From contig NC_012968.1 in assembly GCF_000023705.1 (NCBI RefSeq), positions 2,046,001-2,110,000 of the forward strand: a DNA stretch of 64,000 nt, written 5' to 3'. The notes under the pieces were generated by a model, which saw only the letters and a program-made list of their open reading frames with translations, searched no databases and had not been told where the DNA came from. Below, piece after piece: positions 7,035-49,662 of this stretch. Each line of letters opens with the position of its first letter. Position 1 is the stretch's first letter. This stretch comes from Methylotenera mobilis JLW8 (GTDB lineage: Bacteria; Pseudomonadota; Gammaproteobacteria; Burkholderiales; Methylophilaceae). Both the position numbers and the translations under genes were made by a program.

Positions 7035-7583
7035 ATGGGTAACCGCTTAAGTAAAATTTACACACGTACTGGCGACAATGGCACCACTGGCTTGGGCGAT
7101 GGCAGCCGCATCGGTAAGGACAGCGTCCGTGTAGAGGCCATGGGCGATGTGGATGAACTCAATTCCGTAATAGGTTTAATCTTGGCAGAGGGTGCCTCCC
7201 CACGCTTGCAAGTAACACTCACCAAGATTCAGCACGATTTATTTAATCTGGGCGGCGAAATTTGCATTCCAGGTTATGTGATGCTAACGGCAGCGTGCGT
7301 GGATGAGCTAGAACATCACATAGATGCCTTGAATAGTGAGCTAAGCCCACTAAAAGAGTTTATCTTGCCCGGCGGCAGCAAAAGCGCAGCTTTTTGCCAT
7401 TTAGCCCGCACCGTATGCCGCCGCGCAGAGCGCAAATTAATTGAATTACACCATCATGAAAAAGTAACTGAAATCTCCCTGCAATATTTAAACCGTCTTT
7501 CTGATTTATTATTTGTGATGTGCCGCATTATGAATAAAGAGGCGGGCGTGAGCGACGTATTGTGGAAAAACGAACAAACATGA
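7035..7583 (+). CDS. PduO-type ATP:cob(I)alamin adenosyltransferase
   Basis: This enzyme transfers the 5'-deoxyadenosyl group of ATP to cob(I)alamin, making adenosylcobalamin. The N-terminal ATP loop YTRTGDNGTTGLGDG (9-23), the helix RTVCRRAER (125-133) and the C-terminal NRLSDLLF (153-160) are the PduO-family signatures. AAAGGA precedes ATG 7035 by about eight bases. Its presence implies the cell uses adenosylcobalamin, which fits the B12 riboswitch ahead of nrdA in this window. No riboswitch is visible in its own 160-base leader. Confidence 0.93.
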   Translation: MGNRLSKIYTRTGDNGTTGLGDGSRIGKDSVRVEAMGDVDELNSVIGLILAEGASPRLQVTLTKIQHDLFNLGGEICIPGYVMLTAACVDELEHHIDALNSELSPLKEFILPGGSKSAAFCHLARTVCRRAERKLIELHHHEKVTEISLQYLNRLSDLLFVMCRIMNKEAGVSDVLWKNEQT

Positions 7584-40238: not shown

Positions 40239-40559
40239 TTATATGGTAGTGCTTAACTTCAGCCCTACAATGCCAGCAAAGATAAGTGACAGACTAAGTA
40301 ACCTACCTAAGTTTGCGGACTCACCAAATAGCAAAATACCGAAAATTGCCGTGCCAATAGCGCCAATTCCCACCCAAACTGCATACGCAGTCCCTACGGG
40401 TAATGATTTCATTGCCATTCCCAGTAGCCAAACGCTCAGTATCATGGCCAACACTGTGACCACCGTTGGCCATAATCGCGTAAAACCTTCGGTATACTTT
40501 AGGCCTATTGCCCATACTACTTCTAACAACCCTGCCGCAACAAGAATCGCCCAACTCAT
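40239..40559 (-). CDS. sugE: SMR-family guanidinium exporter (Gdx/SugE type)
   Basis: A 106-residue four-helix small multidrug resistance protein. [23 protein letters not shown] has the essential Glu (E13) of the SMR family, and [25 protein letters not shown] and [18 protein letters not shown] are Gdx/SugE blocks. ATG 40559 has GAGGT eight bases upstream. The leader carries a guanidine-II riboswitch, which supports guanidinium rather than quaternary ammonium as the physiological substrate. Confidence 0.93.
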
Positions 40560-40583
40560 CACTAATACCTCACAAAAAATATT

Positions 40584-40628
40584 GGGTCGTCCCGAAATCA
40601 ATCAAATGAGTAAGGTCGTCCTTACTTA
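40584..40628 (-). promoter_or_regulatory. Guanidine-II (mini-ykkC) riboswitch
   Basis: Read on the minus strand: GTAAGG-ACGA-CCTTAC, a 16-base linker, then GGG-ACGA-CCC. Two hairpins with ACGA (ACGR) loops are the defining feature of guanidine-II riboswitches, in which the loops kiss and each binds a guanidinium ion. The second hairpin ends 24 bases before the sugE ATG, close to its Shine-Dalgarno GAGGT, so control of translation is likely. Confidence 0.9.
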
Positions 40629-40916: not shown

Positions 40917-42599
40917 ATGCAGTCAACGCATCCAGAAATTACTAATCAGGCAGTATTGCCAAAATTTCTGAATCAAACACAAGCAATATTGTTAGTTGCT
41001 GCGTTCATCATGCTGACAGGCAACTTCGCTCTGTTTCACGGCATTGTGCACATATACCCACTGACGGTTGCCAACGTGCCATTTTTAACTTCATTAGCTT
41101 TATTCTTTAGCGCACTTACCGCGATTTTTTTCCTAGCTATATGCCACGGGAGATTTACACGCTGGATCTTGGCATTGTTTGTCGTCATTGCATCGCAAGC
41201 CGCTTACTATATGGATCACTTAGGTATCATTATTGATACAGTCATGATTGATAACATCATGCAAACCAGTGTAAATGAGTTTGCTGGCTTAATCACCATG
41301 AGTTTAATCGTCAGAACTTTGGCATTGGGTGTGCTACCGGCATGGTTAATCGTTAAGTACTTCCCCTCCCCTAGCAACTTCAAATCAGAATTAAAATCCA
41401 GATTAAAAACCATCTTCTTCTGCTTGGCAGGCATTATTCTGCTCGTGCTGCCGTTCACCGCCGATTACAGCTCGTTTATACGTGAACATAAAATCGTCAG
41501 GTTCTACGCAAACCCAACCTATGCAGTGTACTCGGCCATTAAATACTTAACAGACCAAGCCAAAGCGCCAAGTAACCCAACTCTCAATAAAACAGCGGAA
41601 GATGCAGTATTAATTGACTCAAGCACCAGCAAGAAGGAACTTATTATATTAGTGGTGGGTGAAACAGCGCGTGCCGATAGATTCTCATTAAACGGCTATC
41701 AGCGCGAGACCAATCCATTACTCGCCAAACAGAATGTTGTCAGCTTTAGCAACGTCAGTTCATGCGGCACCTCAACTTCGGTATCGGTTCCCTGCATGTT
41801 TTCGTCATTAGGGCGCAGCAAATACGATAAAGAAAAAGCACTGGAACAAGAGAACTTGTTAGACGTACTAAAGAAAAATGGTATCGAAGTGTTATGGCGC
41901 GACAACAACTCAGACTCTAAAGGCGTGGCTACCAGGGTGAGATATGAGGACTTCAAATCGCCTACCCTTAACCCGGTTTGCGAGGGTGAGTGCAGAGATA
42001 TCGGCATGTTAAGCGGGCTGGATAAATATATAGAGGCGCACAAATCTCAGGACATGATGATTGTATTGCACCAAATGGGCAACCACGGCCCTGAATACTA
42101 CCGCAGATACCCCAAAGCATTTGAGCGCTTTAAACCTGCTTGCCAAACCGGTGAGCTCAGAGATTGCTCTAAACAGGAAATTGATAATGCCTACGACAAT
42201 GCAATTTTATATACAGATTACTTCTTGTCCGAGGTAATTAATTTCCTCAAAAAATATGACAGTACGCACGAAACGGCCATGCTCTACGTTTCAGATCATG
42301 GCGAGTCCTTAGGTGAGCATGGCATTTACTTACATGCTGCACCATACATGATGGCGCCTAAAGAGCAAACGCATGTGCCAGTAATCGTATGGGCGGGCCA
42401 AAACTTTGATTATCGTTTAGATGATATTAAATCGTATCAAAACCATGCACTGAGCCACGACGATTTATTTTGTACGATATTAGCCTCGTATGAATTAGAT
42501 TCACATATATGTGCAGCCAAGAAAGGTATTTTCTCTAAAAATACCGTGCTCAAATCAGCCGCCCTAGCTAATCAGAATCAGGACCTGAAGGTGGATTAA
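40917..42599 (+). CDS. eptA: Lipid A phosphoethanolamine transferase (EptA family)
   Basis: An inner-membrane enzyme that transfers phosphoethanolamine to lipid A, changing surface charge and polymyxin resistance. Five hydrophobic segments fill about residues 22-190. The periplasmic sulfatase-like domain has VGETARADRFSLNGY with the metal-binding Glu, the nucleophile T285 in SCGTSTSVSVPC, and SDHGESLGEHG with further metal ligands. Length 560 is typical. It is followed at five bases by the small EamA gene, so an operon is likely. No two-component genes are adjacent. Confidence 0.93.
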   Translation: MQSTHPEITNQAVLPKFLNQTQAILLVAAFIMLTGNFALFHGIVHIYPLTVANVPFLTSLALFFSALTAIFFLAICHGRFTRWILALFVVIASQAAYYMDHLGIIIDTVMIDNIMQTSVNEFAGLITMSLIVRTLALGVLPAWLIVKYFPSPSNFKSELKSRLKTIFFCLAGIILLVLPFTADYSSFIREHKIVRFYANPTYAVYSAIKYLTDQAKAPSNPTLNKTAEDAVLIDSSTSKKELIILVVGETARADRFSLNGYQRETNPLLAKQNVVSFSNVSSCGTSTSVSVPCMFSSLGRSKYDKEKALEQENLLDVLKKNGIEVLWRDNNSDSKGVATRVRYEDFKSPTLNPVCEGECRDIGMLSGLDKYIEAHKSQDMMIVLHQMGNHGPEYYRRYPKAFERFKPACQTGELRDCSKQEIDNAYDNAILYTDYFLSEVINFLKKYDSTHETAMLYVSDHGESLGEHGIYLHAAPYMMAPKEQTHVPVIVWAGQNFDYRLDDIKSYQNHALSHDDLFCTILASYELDSHICAAKKGIFSKNTVLKSAALANQNQDLKVD

Positions 42600-45077: not shown

Positions 45078-45124
45078 AACATATATATGGAATTTTAAAT
45101 CAGACCAATATCAATATATTGTGT
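45078..45124. promoter_or_regulatory. Tandem NrdR boxes upstream of nrdA
   Basis: The site TATCAATATATTGTGT (45109-45124) matches the NrdR consensus acaCwATATATwGtGT at 13 of 16 positions. A weaker copy (45078-45093, about 10 of 16) lies exactly 31 bases upstream, the three-turn spacing at which NrdR boxes normally occur in pairs. They lie just upstream of the promoter. Confidence 0.7.
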
Positions 45125-45132
45125 TTTTTATA

Positions 45133-45162
45133 TTGCAACCACCCGTTATATTGCGTTATATT
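45133..45162 (+). promoter_or_regulatory. nrdA promoter
   Basis: TTGCAA (45133-45138) and TATATT (45157-45162) are 18 bases apart. The predicted start near 45169 coincides with the 5' end of the riboswitch. Confidence 0.6.
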
Positions 45163-45169
45163 TCTCGCA

Positions 45170-45378
45170 TACGGTTCTTATTTTTCAGTCGAAATTTAAG
45201 ATAATAGGGAATCCGGTGCGAAGTTTGGCGTAACGCAAACATCAATACCGGGGCTGCCCCCGCAACTGTAATCAGAGAGTTATTTTGTATTTCTCGCCAC
45301 TGAATTTTAGTGAATTAAAATTTGGGAAGGCTAGCAAAATAATGATGACCTGAAAGCCAGGAGACCTGCCGTAGACAT
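45170..45378 (+). promoter_or_regulatory. Cobalamin riboswitch
   Basis: The conserved elements appear in order: GGGAATCCGGTGCGAAG (45208-45224), CCGGGGCTGCCCCCGCAACTG (near 45248-45268) and the B12 box AGCCAGGAGACCTGCC (45355-45370). Together they define an adenosylcobalamin-class aptamer. After it, about 170 bases of leader precede nrdA, including CGGCAG (45433-45438), which can pair with CTGCCG at the end of the B12 box, and a GGATAGATT hairpin (45441-45459); these may be the expression platform. Confidence 0.95.
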
Positions 45379-45550
45379 TTTTCACACCGCACTGGGGTGA
45401 ATACTTTTATAACGTTTGAGGCGGGGTGTCCTCGGCAGATGGATAGATTTAATCTATCCGCCATGCTGGTCTTTGTTTGGCGCATTTTTCTATTGCAGAA
45501 GATGCTCGCTGTCCAAAGCGTACCTGCCCTTTATTAAAAAGGGAAAACAA

Positions 45551-48367
45551 ATGGATGATATAAAACCATCTTCAAGTACTGATTCAGTACAAGCTACAAT
45601 GTTACCTATGTTGCAAGTGATTCGCCGTAATGGTGCCGCTGTAACATTTAATTTAGACAAAATTTCTATCGCTATTACCAAGGCGTTCTTGGCAGTTGAA
45701 GGCAATCACAGTGCCGCTTCACAGCGCGTACGCGACCAGGTCACTTCGCTCAGTCAAATCGTTAATCATGCCCTAATTCGCCGTTTGCCAACCGGCGGCT
45801 CCATTCATATTGAGGATATCCAAGACCAGGTTGAATTAGCGCTCATGCGCAATGGTAACCACGACGTAGCACGTGCATACGTGCTTTACCGTGAAAAACG
45901 CAACGCGGAGCGTGCTGCCGAAAAAGCGACCACCAGCGAACCAAGCCATGCTTTGAACGTAAATATCGACGGCAAACTAGTGCCGCTTAATATCAAACAA
46001 TTGAATGAGATGGTGGCTGAAGCCTGCTTAAATTTAGGTAATGAAGTTGATGTGAACCTAGTGGTTGAGCAAGCTGTACGCGATTTATACGATGGAATTC
46101 CATTCACTGAAGTGTACAAAGCGCTGATTCTTTCTGCGCGTAGCTTGATTGAAACCGAACCAGCTTACAACTATGTAACAGCGCGTCTGCAACTGGATTT
46201 AGTACGTGCAGAGGTGCTGGGCGAACGTGTAAGCCATGCTGAGATGGACGCACACTATGCAGAATATTTCCCACGCTATATCAAAATCGGTATCGATGCA
46301 GATTTGCTGGATCCACGTTTGGCGCAGTTCGATTTAGATAAACTCGCAAATGCTTTGGTAAAAGAGCGCGACTTCCAATTTGGTTACTTAGGTATTCAAA
46401 CCCTGTATGACCGTTATTTCTTGCATATCGAAGAGCGTCGTATTGAACTACCGCAAATCTTCTTTATGCGCGTGGCGATGGGCTTGGCGATTAATGAAAT
46501 TGACCGCGAAGCGCGAGCAATTGAGTTCTATAACGTATTGAGTACGTTCGACTTTATGAGCTCAACACCTACCTTATTCAACGCCGGCACATTGCATTCA
46601 CAGCTTTCTTCATGCTACCTCACTACCGTGAGCGATGACTTGGATGGCATCTACCAAGGCATTAAAGAAAACGCGCTACTGCAAAAATATGCAGGCGGTT
46701 TAGGTAACGACTGGACACCGGTGCGCTCATTAGGCGCACGTATCAAAGGTACTAATGGCAAGAGCCAAGGCGTGATTCCATTCTTAAAAGTGGTGAATGA
46801 CACCGCAGTGGCTGTGAACCAAGGTGGTAAGCGTAAAGGTGCGGTGTGTGGTTACCTGGAAACCTGGCACTTGGACATCGAAGAGTTTTTAGACTTGCGT
46901 AAAAACACCGGTGATGACCGTCGCCGTACGCATGACATGAATACCGCGCACTGGATTCCAGACCTGTTCATGCGCCGTGTGACGGAGCAGGGCGAGTGGA
47001 CATTGTTCTCTCCATCCGACGTACCTGATTTGCATGACAAATACGGTAAAGCTTTTGAAAAAGCTTATGTAGAGTATGAGCGCCGTGCTGACACCGGTGA
47101 AATCAAGCTATTCAAACGTGTTCCTGCAATTCAAATGTGGCGCAAGATGTTGTCCATGTTGTTTGAAACAGGCCATCCTTGGATCACCTTTAAAGACCCA
47201 TGCAACATTCGCTCACCACAGCAGCACGTAGGTGTGGTGCATAGCTCAAACCTGTGTACAGAAATCACATTGAATACTTCTGATACTGAAATTGCTGTGT
47301 GCAACCTGGGCTCTGTGAACTTATTGCAACATTTAAAAGAAGTTAACGGAAATTTAGAGTTAGATAACGACAAATTGCAGGCGACGATCAAAGTCGGTAT
47401 GCGCATGTTAGATAACGTGGTGGATATCAATTTCTATCCTGTAGGCAAGGCGCGTAATTCCAATACCCGTCATCGCCCGGTGGGCATGGGTATCATGGGT
47501 TTCCAAAATTGCTTACACGCAATGCGTATTCCTTACGCAAGTATGGATGCAGTGGAGTTTGCCGACCGTGCAATGGAAATGGTGTGTTACAACGCGTATT
47601 GGGCTTCAACCGTGCTGGCAGAAGAACGCGGCCCATACTCTAGCTTTAAAGGCAGCTTATGGGATCAAGGCATTTTGCCGTTGGATACATTGAATCTGCT
47701 GGAAGCAGAACGTGGCGGCAATGTAGAAGTAGATAGAAGCAAAACGTTGGATTGGGATGCCTTGCGCAACCGTATCCAAAAAGTTGGTATGCGTAACTCC
47801 AACTGCGTGGCCATTGCGCCTACTGCAACGATTTCTAATATCGTAGGAGTATCAGCCAGTATTGAGCCTGAATACCAAAACCTATATGTGAAATCTAATT
47901 TATCAGGCGAGTTCACCATCGTAAACGAGCAGTTGGTTAATGACCTGAAAGCACGCGGCTTGTGGGATACCGTAATGGTATCTGACTTGAAATATTTTGA
48001 TGGCTCATTGGCGCCAATTGAGCGTGTGCCTGCTGACTTGAAGCAGCTCTATGCAACTGCCTTTGACGTAGACCCAAGCTGGTTGATTGAAGCGGCAGCA
48101 CGTCGCCAGAAATGGATAGACCAGGCGCAATCACTCAACCTGTACTTTGCGGTGCCATCAGGCAAGAAGCTGAACGATACGTATCTACTAGCATGGCAAC
48201 GTGGTTTGAAAACGACCTATTACCTACGCTCTTTGGGTGCAACTGCGGCGGAGAAATCTACTGGCAGCGGTGGTGAGTTGAACGCGGTGTCTGCACATAC
48301 AACGGCACCAGAACCTGCGCCGAAAATGTGCAGTATCGACAACCCAGACTGCGAATCTTGCCAATAA
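45551..48367 (+). CDS. nrdA: Ribonucleoside-diphosphate reductase, class Ia large subunit
   Basis: Reduces ribonucleotides to deoxyribonucleotides with the radical supplied by NrdB. ATG 45551 follows AGGGAAAAC; earlier in-frame codons lie in the riboswitch leader. Residues about 15-115 are an ATP-cone and about 130-220 look like a second cone, as in Pseudomonas NrdA, so dATP inhibition is expected. Catalytic residues are N567, C569 and E571 (NLCTE), with redox cysteines C355 and C584; the C-terminal CSIDNPDCESCQ is the swinging dithiol tail. Length 938. The B12 riboswitch and NrdR boxes control it. Confidence 0.95.
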   Translation: MDDIKPSSSTDSVQATMLPMLQVIRRNGAAVTFNLDKISIAITKAFLAVEGNHSAASQRVRDQVTSLSQIVNHALIRRLPTGGSIHIEDIQDQVELALMRNGNHDVARAYVLYREKRNAERAAEKATTSEPSHALNVNIDGKLVPLNIKQLNEMVAEACLNLGNEVDVNLVVEQAVRDLYDGIPFTEVYKALILSARSLIETEPAYNYVTARLQLDLVRAEVLGERVSHAEMDAHYAEYFPRYIKIGIDADLLDPRLAQFDLDKLANALVKERDFQFGYLGIQTLYDRYFLHIEERRIELPQIFFMRVAMGLAINEIDREARAIEFYNVLSTFDFMSSTPTLFNAGTLHSQLSSCYLTTVSDDLDGIYQGIKENALLQKYAGGLGNDWTPVRSLGARIKGTNGKSQGVIPFLKVVNDTAVAVNQGGKRKGAVCGYLETWHLDIEEFLDLRKNTGDDRRRTHDMNTAHWIPDLFMRRVTEQGEWTLFSPSDVPDLHDKYGKAFEKAYVEYERRADTGEIKLFKRVPAIQMWRKMLSMLFETGHPWITFKDPCNIRSPQQHVGVVHSSNLCTEITLNTSDTEIAVCNLGSVNLLQHLKEVNGNLELDNDKLQATIKVGMRMLDNVVDINFYPVGKARNSNTRHRPVGMGIMGFQNCLHAMRIPYASMDAVEFADRAMEMVCYNAYWASTVLAEERGPYSSFKGSLWDQGILPLDTLNLLEAERGGNVEVDRSKTLDWDALRNRIQKVGMRNSNCVAIAPTATISNIVGVSASIEPEYQNLYVKSNLSGEFTIVNEQLVNDLKARGLWDTVMVSDLKYFDGSLAPIERVPADLKQLYATAFDVDPSWLIEAAARRQKWIDQAQSLNLYFAVPSGKKLNDTYLLAWQRGLKTTYYLRSLGATAAEKSTGSGGELNAVSAHTTAPEPAPKMCSIDNPDCESCQ

Positions 48368-48528: not shown

Positions 48529-49662
48529 ATGCTTTCATTTGAAGATGAAGTAATTACAGAGCCATCAGCACCTAAGTTAGCGGCAGTGCCGGCCCCAGCT
48601 GTGCAAACCGCAACGCCAGTAGCAGCAAACCAGCCATCTATCTCAGGCCGTGTGAACGCCTCTGACAAACGCATGATTAACGGCCAGACTGATGTAAACC
48701 AACTGGTGCCGTTTAAATATCACTGGGCTTGGGACAAATACCTTGCAGGCTGCGCCAATCACTGGATGCCGCAAGAGGTTTCCATGAGCCGAGATATTGC
48801 ACAATGGAAAGACAGCACAGCACTTACAGACGATGAGCGTCTGATTGTGAAGCGTAATTTGGGCTTTTTCACTACGGCCGACTCGCTGGCTGCGAACAAC
48901 ATCGTGCTCGGTACCTATCGCCACATTACGGCGCCAGAAGCACGCCAATACTTGCTGCGCCAGGGTTTTGAAGAGGCAATCCATACCCATGCGTATCAAT
49001 ACATCGTCGAGAGTCTGGGCTTAGACGAATCGGAAGTGTTTAATGCTTACCAAGAAGTGGCGAGCATTAAAGATAAAGATGACTTCTTGATTCCGTTCAT
49101 CAACACGCTGACGAATCCGGAATTCAAAACTGGTACAGCAGAAGCGGACCAGCAACTGCTGCGTTCACTCATCGTGTTTGCCTGCATCATGGAAGGCCTG
49201 TTTTTCTATGTCGGGTTCGTACAGATTCTTGCACTGGGTCGCCAGAACAAGATGCAGGGCGCTGCCGAGCAATACCAATACATCTTGCGTGACGAGTCTA
49301 TGCACTGCAATTTTGGTATCGATGTGATCAATACGATTAAATTGGAAAATCCGCACTTGTGGACTGCAGAATTCCGCGATGAGATCAAAGGTTTAATCCA
49401 GCACGGTGTTGAGCTTGAGTACCGCTATGCCGAAGCCACCATGCCACGTGGCGTGTTGGGCTTGAATGCTACGATGTTTAAGGAATATTTACGTTTTATT
49501 GCCAACCGTCGCTGCCAGCAAATCGGTTTGGATGTGTTATATCAAGGTGCGACCAATCCATTCCCATGGATGAGTGAAATGATTGACTTGAAGAAAGAGA
49601 AAAACTTCTTTGAAACGCGTGTAACGGAATATCAAACTGGTGGTGCATTAAGCTGGGATTAA
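48529..49662 (+). CDS. nrdB: Ribonucleoside-diphosphate reductase, class Ia small subunit
   Basis: Houses the diiron-tyrosyl radical cofactor. By alignment with E. coli NrdB the iron ligands are D118, E149, H152, E222, E256 and H259, and Y156 (EAIHTHAY) is the radical tyrosine; an Fe-Y cofactor is therefore expected. AAGGA precedes ATG 48529. The 377-residue length includes an Ala/Pro-rich N-terminal extension of about 40 residues. Confidence 0.96.

Follow-up and report, generated by a model that had tools for sequence, protein, structure and literature searches.

The nrdABS operon of Streptomyces coelicolor was reportedly described with a B12 riboswitch by Borovok et al. in 2006. In this actinobacterium, a cobalamin riboswitch stands before the class Ia genes nrdABS, and the main ribonucleotide reductase is NrdJ, a class II enzyme dependent on adenosylcobalamin (AdoCbl) (PMC4991794). 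In Propionibacterium (Cutibacterium) acnes, a cobalamin riboswitch is placed on nrdAB, whose promoter bears an nrd-box, and none on nrdRJ; most transcripts stop short of nrdAB, nrdDG is riboswitched as well, and B12 synthesis genes are expressed (PMC3848588). The methylotroph Bacillus methanolicus MGA3 has cobalamin riboswitches before nrdAB, before its transport and late-synthesis genes, and before metE (PMC4342826); the logic of this arrangement, which a preliminary description of the DNA analysed here had tied to some actinobacteria, is thus indeed published there but is not confined to them. Our subject is a 64-kb stretch of the Methylotenera mobilis JLW8 genome (64,000 nucleotides of contig NC_012968.1; hereafter the window), in which a complete cobalamin riboswitch aptamer stands directly 5' of a class Ia nrdA, on the same strand. 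With the logic already published for Streptomyces, P. acnes and B. methanolicus, this Methylophilaceae case is, by analogy, a further instance, and it extends the B12-governed choice between ribonucleotide reductases to this methylotrophic family. The nrdAB leader very probably constitutes an OFF switch, by which B12 would repress nrdAB and class Ia reductase would replace NrdJ under B12 shortage, the direction in which the published precedents work.

The aptamer occupies positions 45155-45387 (+) of the window. When Rfam cmscan was run over the whole window, it matched RF00174 with 112 bits (gathering score 31.5; E 3.1e-27) over the full, untruncated model (positions 1-189 of 189), which bears out the earlier recognition of a complete B12 aptamer before nrdA while moving its start to about 15 nucleotides before 45170. 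Profile matches identify the gene behind it, nrdA (45551-48367, +), as encoding a class Ia alpha subunit of 938 residues (NF005544, 1695 bits, cut-off 965; TIGR02506, 706 bits, cut-off 341) with the domains PF03477, PF00317 and PF02867; the protein can be aligned over almost its whole length with PDB 5im3 (1339 bits), the nearest solved NrdA, which we take to be that of Pseudomonas aeruginosa. Its start is the ATG at 45551, preceded by the Shine-Dalgarno-like AAGGGA at 45539-45544, and a mechanically called TTG start at 45416 was rejected, as that position falls inside the leader. The 377-residue beta subunit is encoded by nrdB (48529-49662, +; NF005550, 678 bits, cut-off 309), and, unlike in the operon of S. 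coelicolor, no nrdS follows directly in this betaproteobacterium. Close solved NrdB chains presumably include some of class Ic, and at the two positions that we take to discriminate class Ia from class Ic the window's NrdB has Asp (TADSL) and Tyr (HTHAY), against Glu (TAESL) and Phe (HTHTF) in PDB 6y2n. Because Tyr and Asp are kept, a class Ic NrdB was rejected and the original assignment of the reductase to class Ia is correct.

The same genome (one contig, 2,547,570 bases, completeness 100) encodes NrdJ, a prediction that the preliminary description had set beforehand as its test. The 721-residue chain at C1:53356-55272 scores 567 bits against TIGR02504 (curated cut-off 399.95), and downstream of it lies an NrdJb-like partner, a separate 232-residue open reading frame with a TSCPD domain (PF12637) that matches the end of NF006417. 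A catalytic chain combined with a separate C-terminal chain bearing TSCPD and a cysteine-rich tail is what a split class II enzyme, predicted here as NrdJab, should look like, and the two chains encoded here have this form. A class II enzyme in two chains and an NrdA nearest 5im3 are both likenesses to P. aeruginosa; unlike in that B12-making species, nrdAB here carries a riboswitch. The split of the P. aeruginosa class II enzyme is described in PMC4520616. No match to class III NrdD was found in the genome, a difference from P. acnes. Cobalamin riboswitches number only two in the genome, before nrdA and before the gene for a BtuB-like receptor (TIGR01779, 425 bits, below the cut-off of 599.7); none precedes nrdJ. 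The locus thus resembles that of P. acnes in having a riboswitch on nrdAB, an NrdR-type box at its promoter and no riboswitch on nrdJ, and differs in that the boxes form a pair. With one switch ahead of nrdAB and the other ahead of genes for transport and late synthesis, this methylotroph is also like B. methanolicus MGA3, a Firmicute; unlike there, where metE is itself riboswitched, the relatives G048 and G016 have metE adjoining nrdAB, with the switch before nrdA.

Where, then, would the cofactor come from? Around the BtuB-like receptor gene, a CobA-type adenosyltransferase, CobB, CobT, CobS, CobD, CbiB, CobQ, CobU/CobP and BluB are all encoded over curated cut-offs. The PduO-type cob(I)alamin adenosyltransferase that had been cited as fitting a use of AdoCbl is real (7035-7583, +; TIGR00636, 212 bits, cut-off 108), lying 38 kb from nrdAB and related to it by function only, and the second, CobA-type adenosyltransferase sits behind btuB. 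The B12 salvage region also encodes a CobN-like protein (L044, 16243-18989, -), of which only the C-terminal part is present (PF02514); its gene adjoins ExbB-like and DUF2149 genes, and in a genome in which no corrin pathway was found its role may lie in uptake and not in the insertion of cobalt. No corrin-ring methylase was found in the genome, the three proteins matching TP_methylase only being CysG, RsmI and an RsmI-like protein; the cell therefore probably depends on external corrinoids. To judge from this gene content, the organism is probably a salvager of B12 and not a maker, so that, unlike in S. coelicolor, the switch would act alongside a split NrdJab and, probably, without B12 synthesis, and it would report B12 uptake and salvage.

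Given a NrdJ that needs B12 and a vitamin that is probably not made, the likeliest role of the switch is to bring in the reserve enzyme when B12 runs low. What the aptamer binds, which way nrdAB responds and, most of all, how the switching is done are inferred, and the following course is proposed. With ample AdoCbl, obtained by uptake or salvage followed by adenosylation, the aptamer would be occupied, whereupon L5 would dock with L13 and the closing helix of the aptamer would retain its 3' arm CUGCCG (45366-45371, +; complementary to 45433-45438). CGGCAG would thus be left free, the hairpin at 45433-45469 would form and nrdAB expression would fall; a hairpin before the start codon could also mask the ribosome site. 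The B12-replete cell would rely on the AdoCbl-dependent NrdJab, whose genes lie in another part of the genome. A shortage of AdoCbl would leave NrdJ without its cofactor and let CUGCCG pair with CGGCAG; the class Ia enzyme NrdAB, independent of B12 although it requires oxygen, would then step in.

Is this arrangement peculiar to one strain? Among 150 Methylophilaceae genomes, NrdJ scored over its cut-off in 137, and NrdA was found in 53 (54 genes) and is thus accessory, leaving 86 with NrdJ over the cut-off and no NrdA. Two genomes, G014 (99% complete) and G083 (92%), gave no class I or class II match, for which an assembly gap, a masked stretch or another enzyme are possible explanations. The upstream stretches of the 53 nrdA genes besides the window's, taken in three batches, yielded a riboswitch in 18/18, 17/18 and 17/17, hence in 53/54 with the window; genome G149 has two long-type nrdA genes (L045, L046), each with its own cobalamin riboswitch. 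NrdJ accompanies the nrdA riboswitch in all 52 genomes that carry it, as the B12 logic predicts; in 51 it passes the cut-off, and in G064 it is a fragment where a contig ends. The parts of the leader are conserved as well. A CCCCG in L5 (45258-45262, +) is complementary to the loop of the L13 element AACGTTTGAGGCGGGGTGTCCTCGGCAG (45411-45438, +), and L5-L13 kissing loops are described for cobalamin riboswitches (PMC9600662). This complementarity is kept in 53/53 nrdA leaders; as the loops are invariant, there is no covariation to count. The last 27 nucleotides of the L13 element are exact in 40 of the 53, with one mismatch in 11 and two in 2, and the window's L13 hairpin by itself has no exceptional stability (z -1.13). 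One nrdA aptamer (L089; genome G010, 659-1069, -) carries an insert of about 190 nucleotides in a variable arm and still scores 61 bits.

The single nrdA leader without a riboswitch match, even at E values up to 5, belongs to G043 (99% complete), where NrdJ was detected neither by hidden Markov model (NrdA alone matched, under the cut-off) nor by protein search. Of the 53 nrdA genomes, a single one is without nrdJ and a single one without the switch, and in both cases it is G043; its five genus-mates retain both. The G043 leader aligns with theirs at the promoter, boxes and ribosome site, its conserved aptamer boxes are unrecognisable and its L13 is changed, and by this alignment it is a decayed riboswitch. 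The adjoining metE frame is shortened to 366 residues. Loss of the switch alongside nrdJ would be just what the B12 logic predicts.

Beyond this sample, 80 named NrdA loci (the best 80 of a longer list) were searched for the switch by motif and without a covariance model. Seven carried it: Methylomicrobium, Methylobacillus (L109, M. flagellatus, itself one of the Methylophilaceae), Methylovulum, Azospira, Azonexus and two other betaproteobacteria. NrdJ is present in all seven, in one case divided over two contig pieces. Two of the loci, L153 and L178, offer only about 150 and about 340 nucleotides upstream, so that absence of the switch there says little. Among the 73 switchless genomes, NrdJ was clear in 38, in pieces in 2 and not found in 33, 'clear' meaning, on our reading, a second gene that scored above the NrdA level. 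The association thus runs in one direction, from switch to nrdJ, and its converse fails; that nrdJ by itself brings the switch was accordingly rejected. Methylobacillus aside, the L13 element recurs in the two methanotrophs among the seven (Methylococcaceae), at 0-1 mismatches over 27 nucleotides, and this sharing hints at transfer of the cassette.

Several observations weigh against the OFF switch as proposed. The 38 switchless genomes with a clear NrdJ mean that NrdA and NrdJ can be paired in its absence; natural loss was seen just once, in an assembly of about 20 contigs; and nrdAB of P. aeruginosa is described as free of B12-riboswitch control (PMC5962746). Others concern the expression platform. 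A strict terminator scan matched no terminator, and the six pairs of CUGCCG:CGGCAG, all possible in 29/32 long-type leaders, are all possible in only 9/21 leaders of the short type (the two types of NrdAB are introduced below). Since the pairing fails in 12/21 short-type leaders, one platform does not fit all, and this antiterminator was rejected as a general device.

What could the switching step be? In the window, a terminator-like hairpin, CGGCAGATGG...CCATGCTGG (45433-45469, +), has a z of -4.46 (-2.76 and -1.97 for slightly different stretches) and is followed by the U-rich tail TCTTTGTTT (45470-45478, +). Among the 29 of 32 long-type leaders in which the hairpin was delimited (L047-L049 were not, and L073 and L074 were delimited wrongly yet kept in), the median z is -2.17, with z < -2 in 17/29, and 21/29 have at least 6 T within 10 nucleotides after the stable hairpin; alignment A1, with 27 of the 32, is too gappy in the hairpin for covariation counts. 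The window and the long-type leaders would thus fit antitermination, and we put the terminator as the switching step at somewhat better than an even chance. A step that is translational, or both translational and terminator-based, has a chance a little short of even. In its pure form, the translational alternative holds that the same OFF switch acts through B12 binding that favours a hairpin over the nrdA Shine-Dalgarno site, the 45433-45469 hairpin being no terminator. It draws on the null result of the strict scan, on short-type leaders that have no clear U tract and often no antiterminator pairing, and on the Shine-Dalgarno site itself, of which at least two of three letters are paired in 53/53 leaders (fold of the last 48 nucleotides, no shuffle control); translational control is also described for cobalamin riboswitches of Chlorobi (PMC8620254). 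On the other hand, the U-rich stretches after stable hairpins in the long-type leaders speak for termination, the window's CCCTTT/AAAGGG hairpin over the Shine-Dalgarno site (45527-45543, +) is of ordinary stability (z -1.04), and in P. acnes much nrdAB transcription stops before the gene (PMC3848588). We regard this alternative as a serious contender, though on balance not the one that we favour.

Does B12 command the operon by itself? Two putative NrdR-box-like sites, at 45109-45124 (+; 13/16 to ACACWATATATWGTGT) and, 32 bp after it, at 45141-45156 (+; 12/16), precede the aptamer. ACACWATATATWGTGT is what we take to be the NrdR box consensus, and 31-32 bp presumably the usual spacing of a pair. 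This is the only pair in the window with both sites at 11/16 or better and a spacing of 31/32. Both boxes are overlapped by a promoter-like TTGCAA-18-TATATT (45133-45162, +; 9/12 consensus matches) that reaches the aptamer; as the promoter scan gave 3 matches in the region where shuffled sequence would lead one to expect 1.8, this site is weak by itself. With two boxes 32 bp apart at the promoter and nrdR present in the genome, the operon looks like a member of the NrdR regulon, and NrdR is probably a further regulator, acting at the nrdAB promoter. A single NrdR-box-like site (L006, 8131-8146, +; 15/16) was also seen before nrdJ; both reductases may thus answer to NrdR, with the B12 switch on nrdAB alone. 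It could be argued further that deoxynucleoside triphosphate levels or oxygen, acting through NrdR, are the main switch of nrdAB, the riboswitch being vestigial or of minor effect: NrdR-box-like pairs precede 45/53 nrdA aptamers against 0/213 control stretches, and the G043 leader, its aptamer lost, retained promoter and boxes. A vestigial aptamer, however, would not persist in 53/54 nrdA leaders with L13 exact in 40/53, and decay is seen in the nrdJ-less genome only, which makes this explanation improbable.

A complete RF00174 architecture, as found here, is of the kind usually tied to AdoCbl. That the aptamer instead senses other corrinoids, be they salvage intermediates or non-cobalamin cobamides, and so reports uptake generally, is quite unlikely: several corrinoids can trigger cobalamin riboswitches, and the genome does have remodelling and salvage genes, but in the one isozyme pair tested, metE/metH, the preferences of riboswitch and enzyme were largely aligned (PMC9600662).

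With AdoCbl as the probable ligand of an OFF switch, one may ask what is being conserved, the enzyme or its control. The NrdAs of the family fall into 32 of a long type, the window's among them and resembling 5im3, and 22 of a short type resembling the Escherichia coli R1 and R2 entries, an assignment for which one NrdA and two NrdBs were compared. Across eight regions the two types are only 27-30% identical in NrdA and 23-27% in NrdB, and yet the 53 switched nrdA genes, of both types, have the leader in common. The gene order metR-metE-nrdAB occurs with the long type in G048 and with short types in G016 and G043 (there with the shortened metE), and not in the window, G081, G062 or G017. Between genera g10 and g19 the short NrdAs share 89-90% identity and the leaders about 60%, these being no nearer to each other than to the long-type leaders of g1 (62%). 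By plain identity, the g19 long-type leaders L052 and L070 are nearer to the g1 long type than to the g19 short type; L063 is not. Leader trees place the short type in more than one position, and a single clade of short-type leaders is not rejected with 50 leaders (p-AU 0.057) but is rejected with 46 (p-AU 0.005), the set from which four long-branch leaders had been removed; both trees exclude L089 (for its insert), L048 (a copy of L047) and L055 (short upstream), and a further leader tree excludes L089 alone. It is therefore likely, on these comparisons, that nrdAB was exchanged beneath a standing leader. We incline, somewhat more than not, towards a broader view in which the leader, with NrdR boxes, promoter, aptamer and L13, is the standing control unit: class Ia genes would be swapped beneath it, leaders would not group according to the gene that they govern, the leader would decay where nrdJ is lost, and the switch rather than the enzyme would be conserved, retained because the cell depends on a class II reductase that requires B12.

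A literature search on cobalamin riboswitches or B12 and reductases in Methylophilaceae or Methylotenera did not find the nrdAB arrangement, although its coverage was limited and is not proof of novelty; for the family's OM43 strain H5P1, one riboswitch is reported, before btuB (PMC9004378). Neither natural loss together with nrdJ nor gene exchange beneath the leader was met in the excerpts of the published accounts of the precedents. If the 86 of 150 genomes with NrdJ only are also without class III and corrin synthesis, as was checked in the window's genome only, their DNA synthesis would hang on their neighbours' B12, and switched nrdAB would be a way out of such dependence. What holds a riboswitch in place thereby becomes testable, on a leader that falls into decay in the absence of nrdJ and apparently survives when the genes under it are replaced.

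Upstream of the reductase genes, the window encodes a phosphoethanolamine transferase of the EptA/EptB kind (40917-42599, +; PF08019, PF00884). A Guanidine-II (mini-ykkC) riboswitch lies at 40582-40627 (-), with 33.8 bits barely above its gathering score of 32, and the gene behind it (40239-40601, -) encodes a small multidrug-resistance protein of the SugE kind (NF008512, 158 bits; PF00893), the pairing of this riboswitch with a SugE-type transporter being the usual one.

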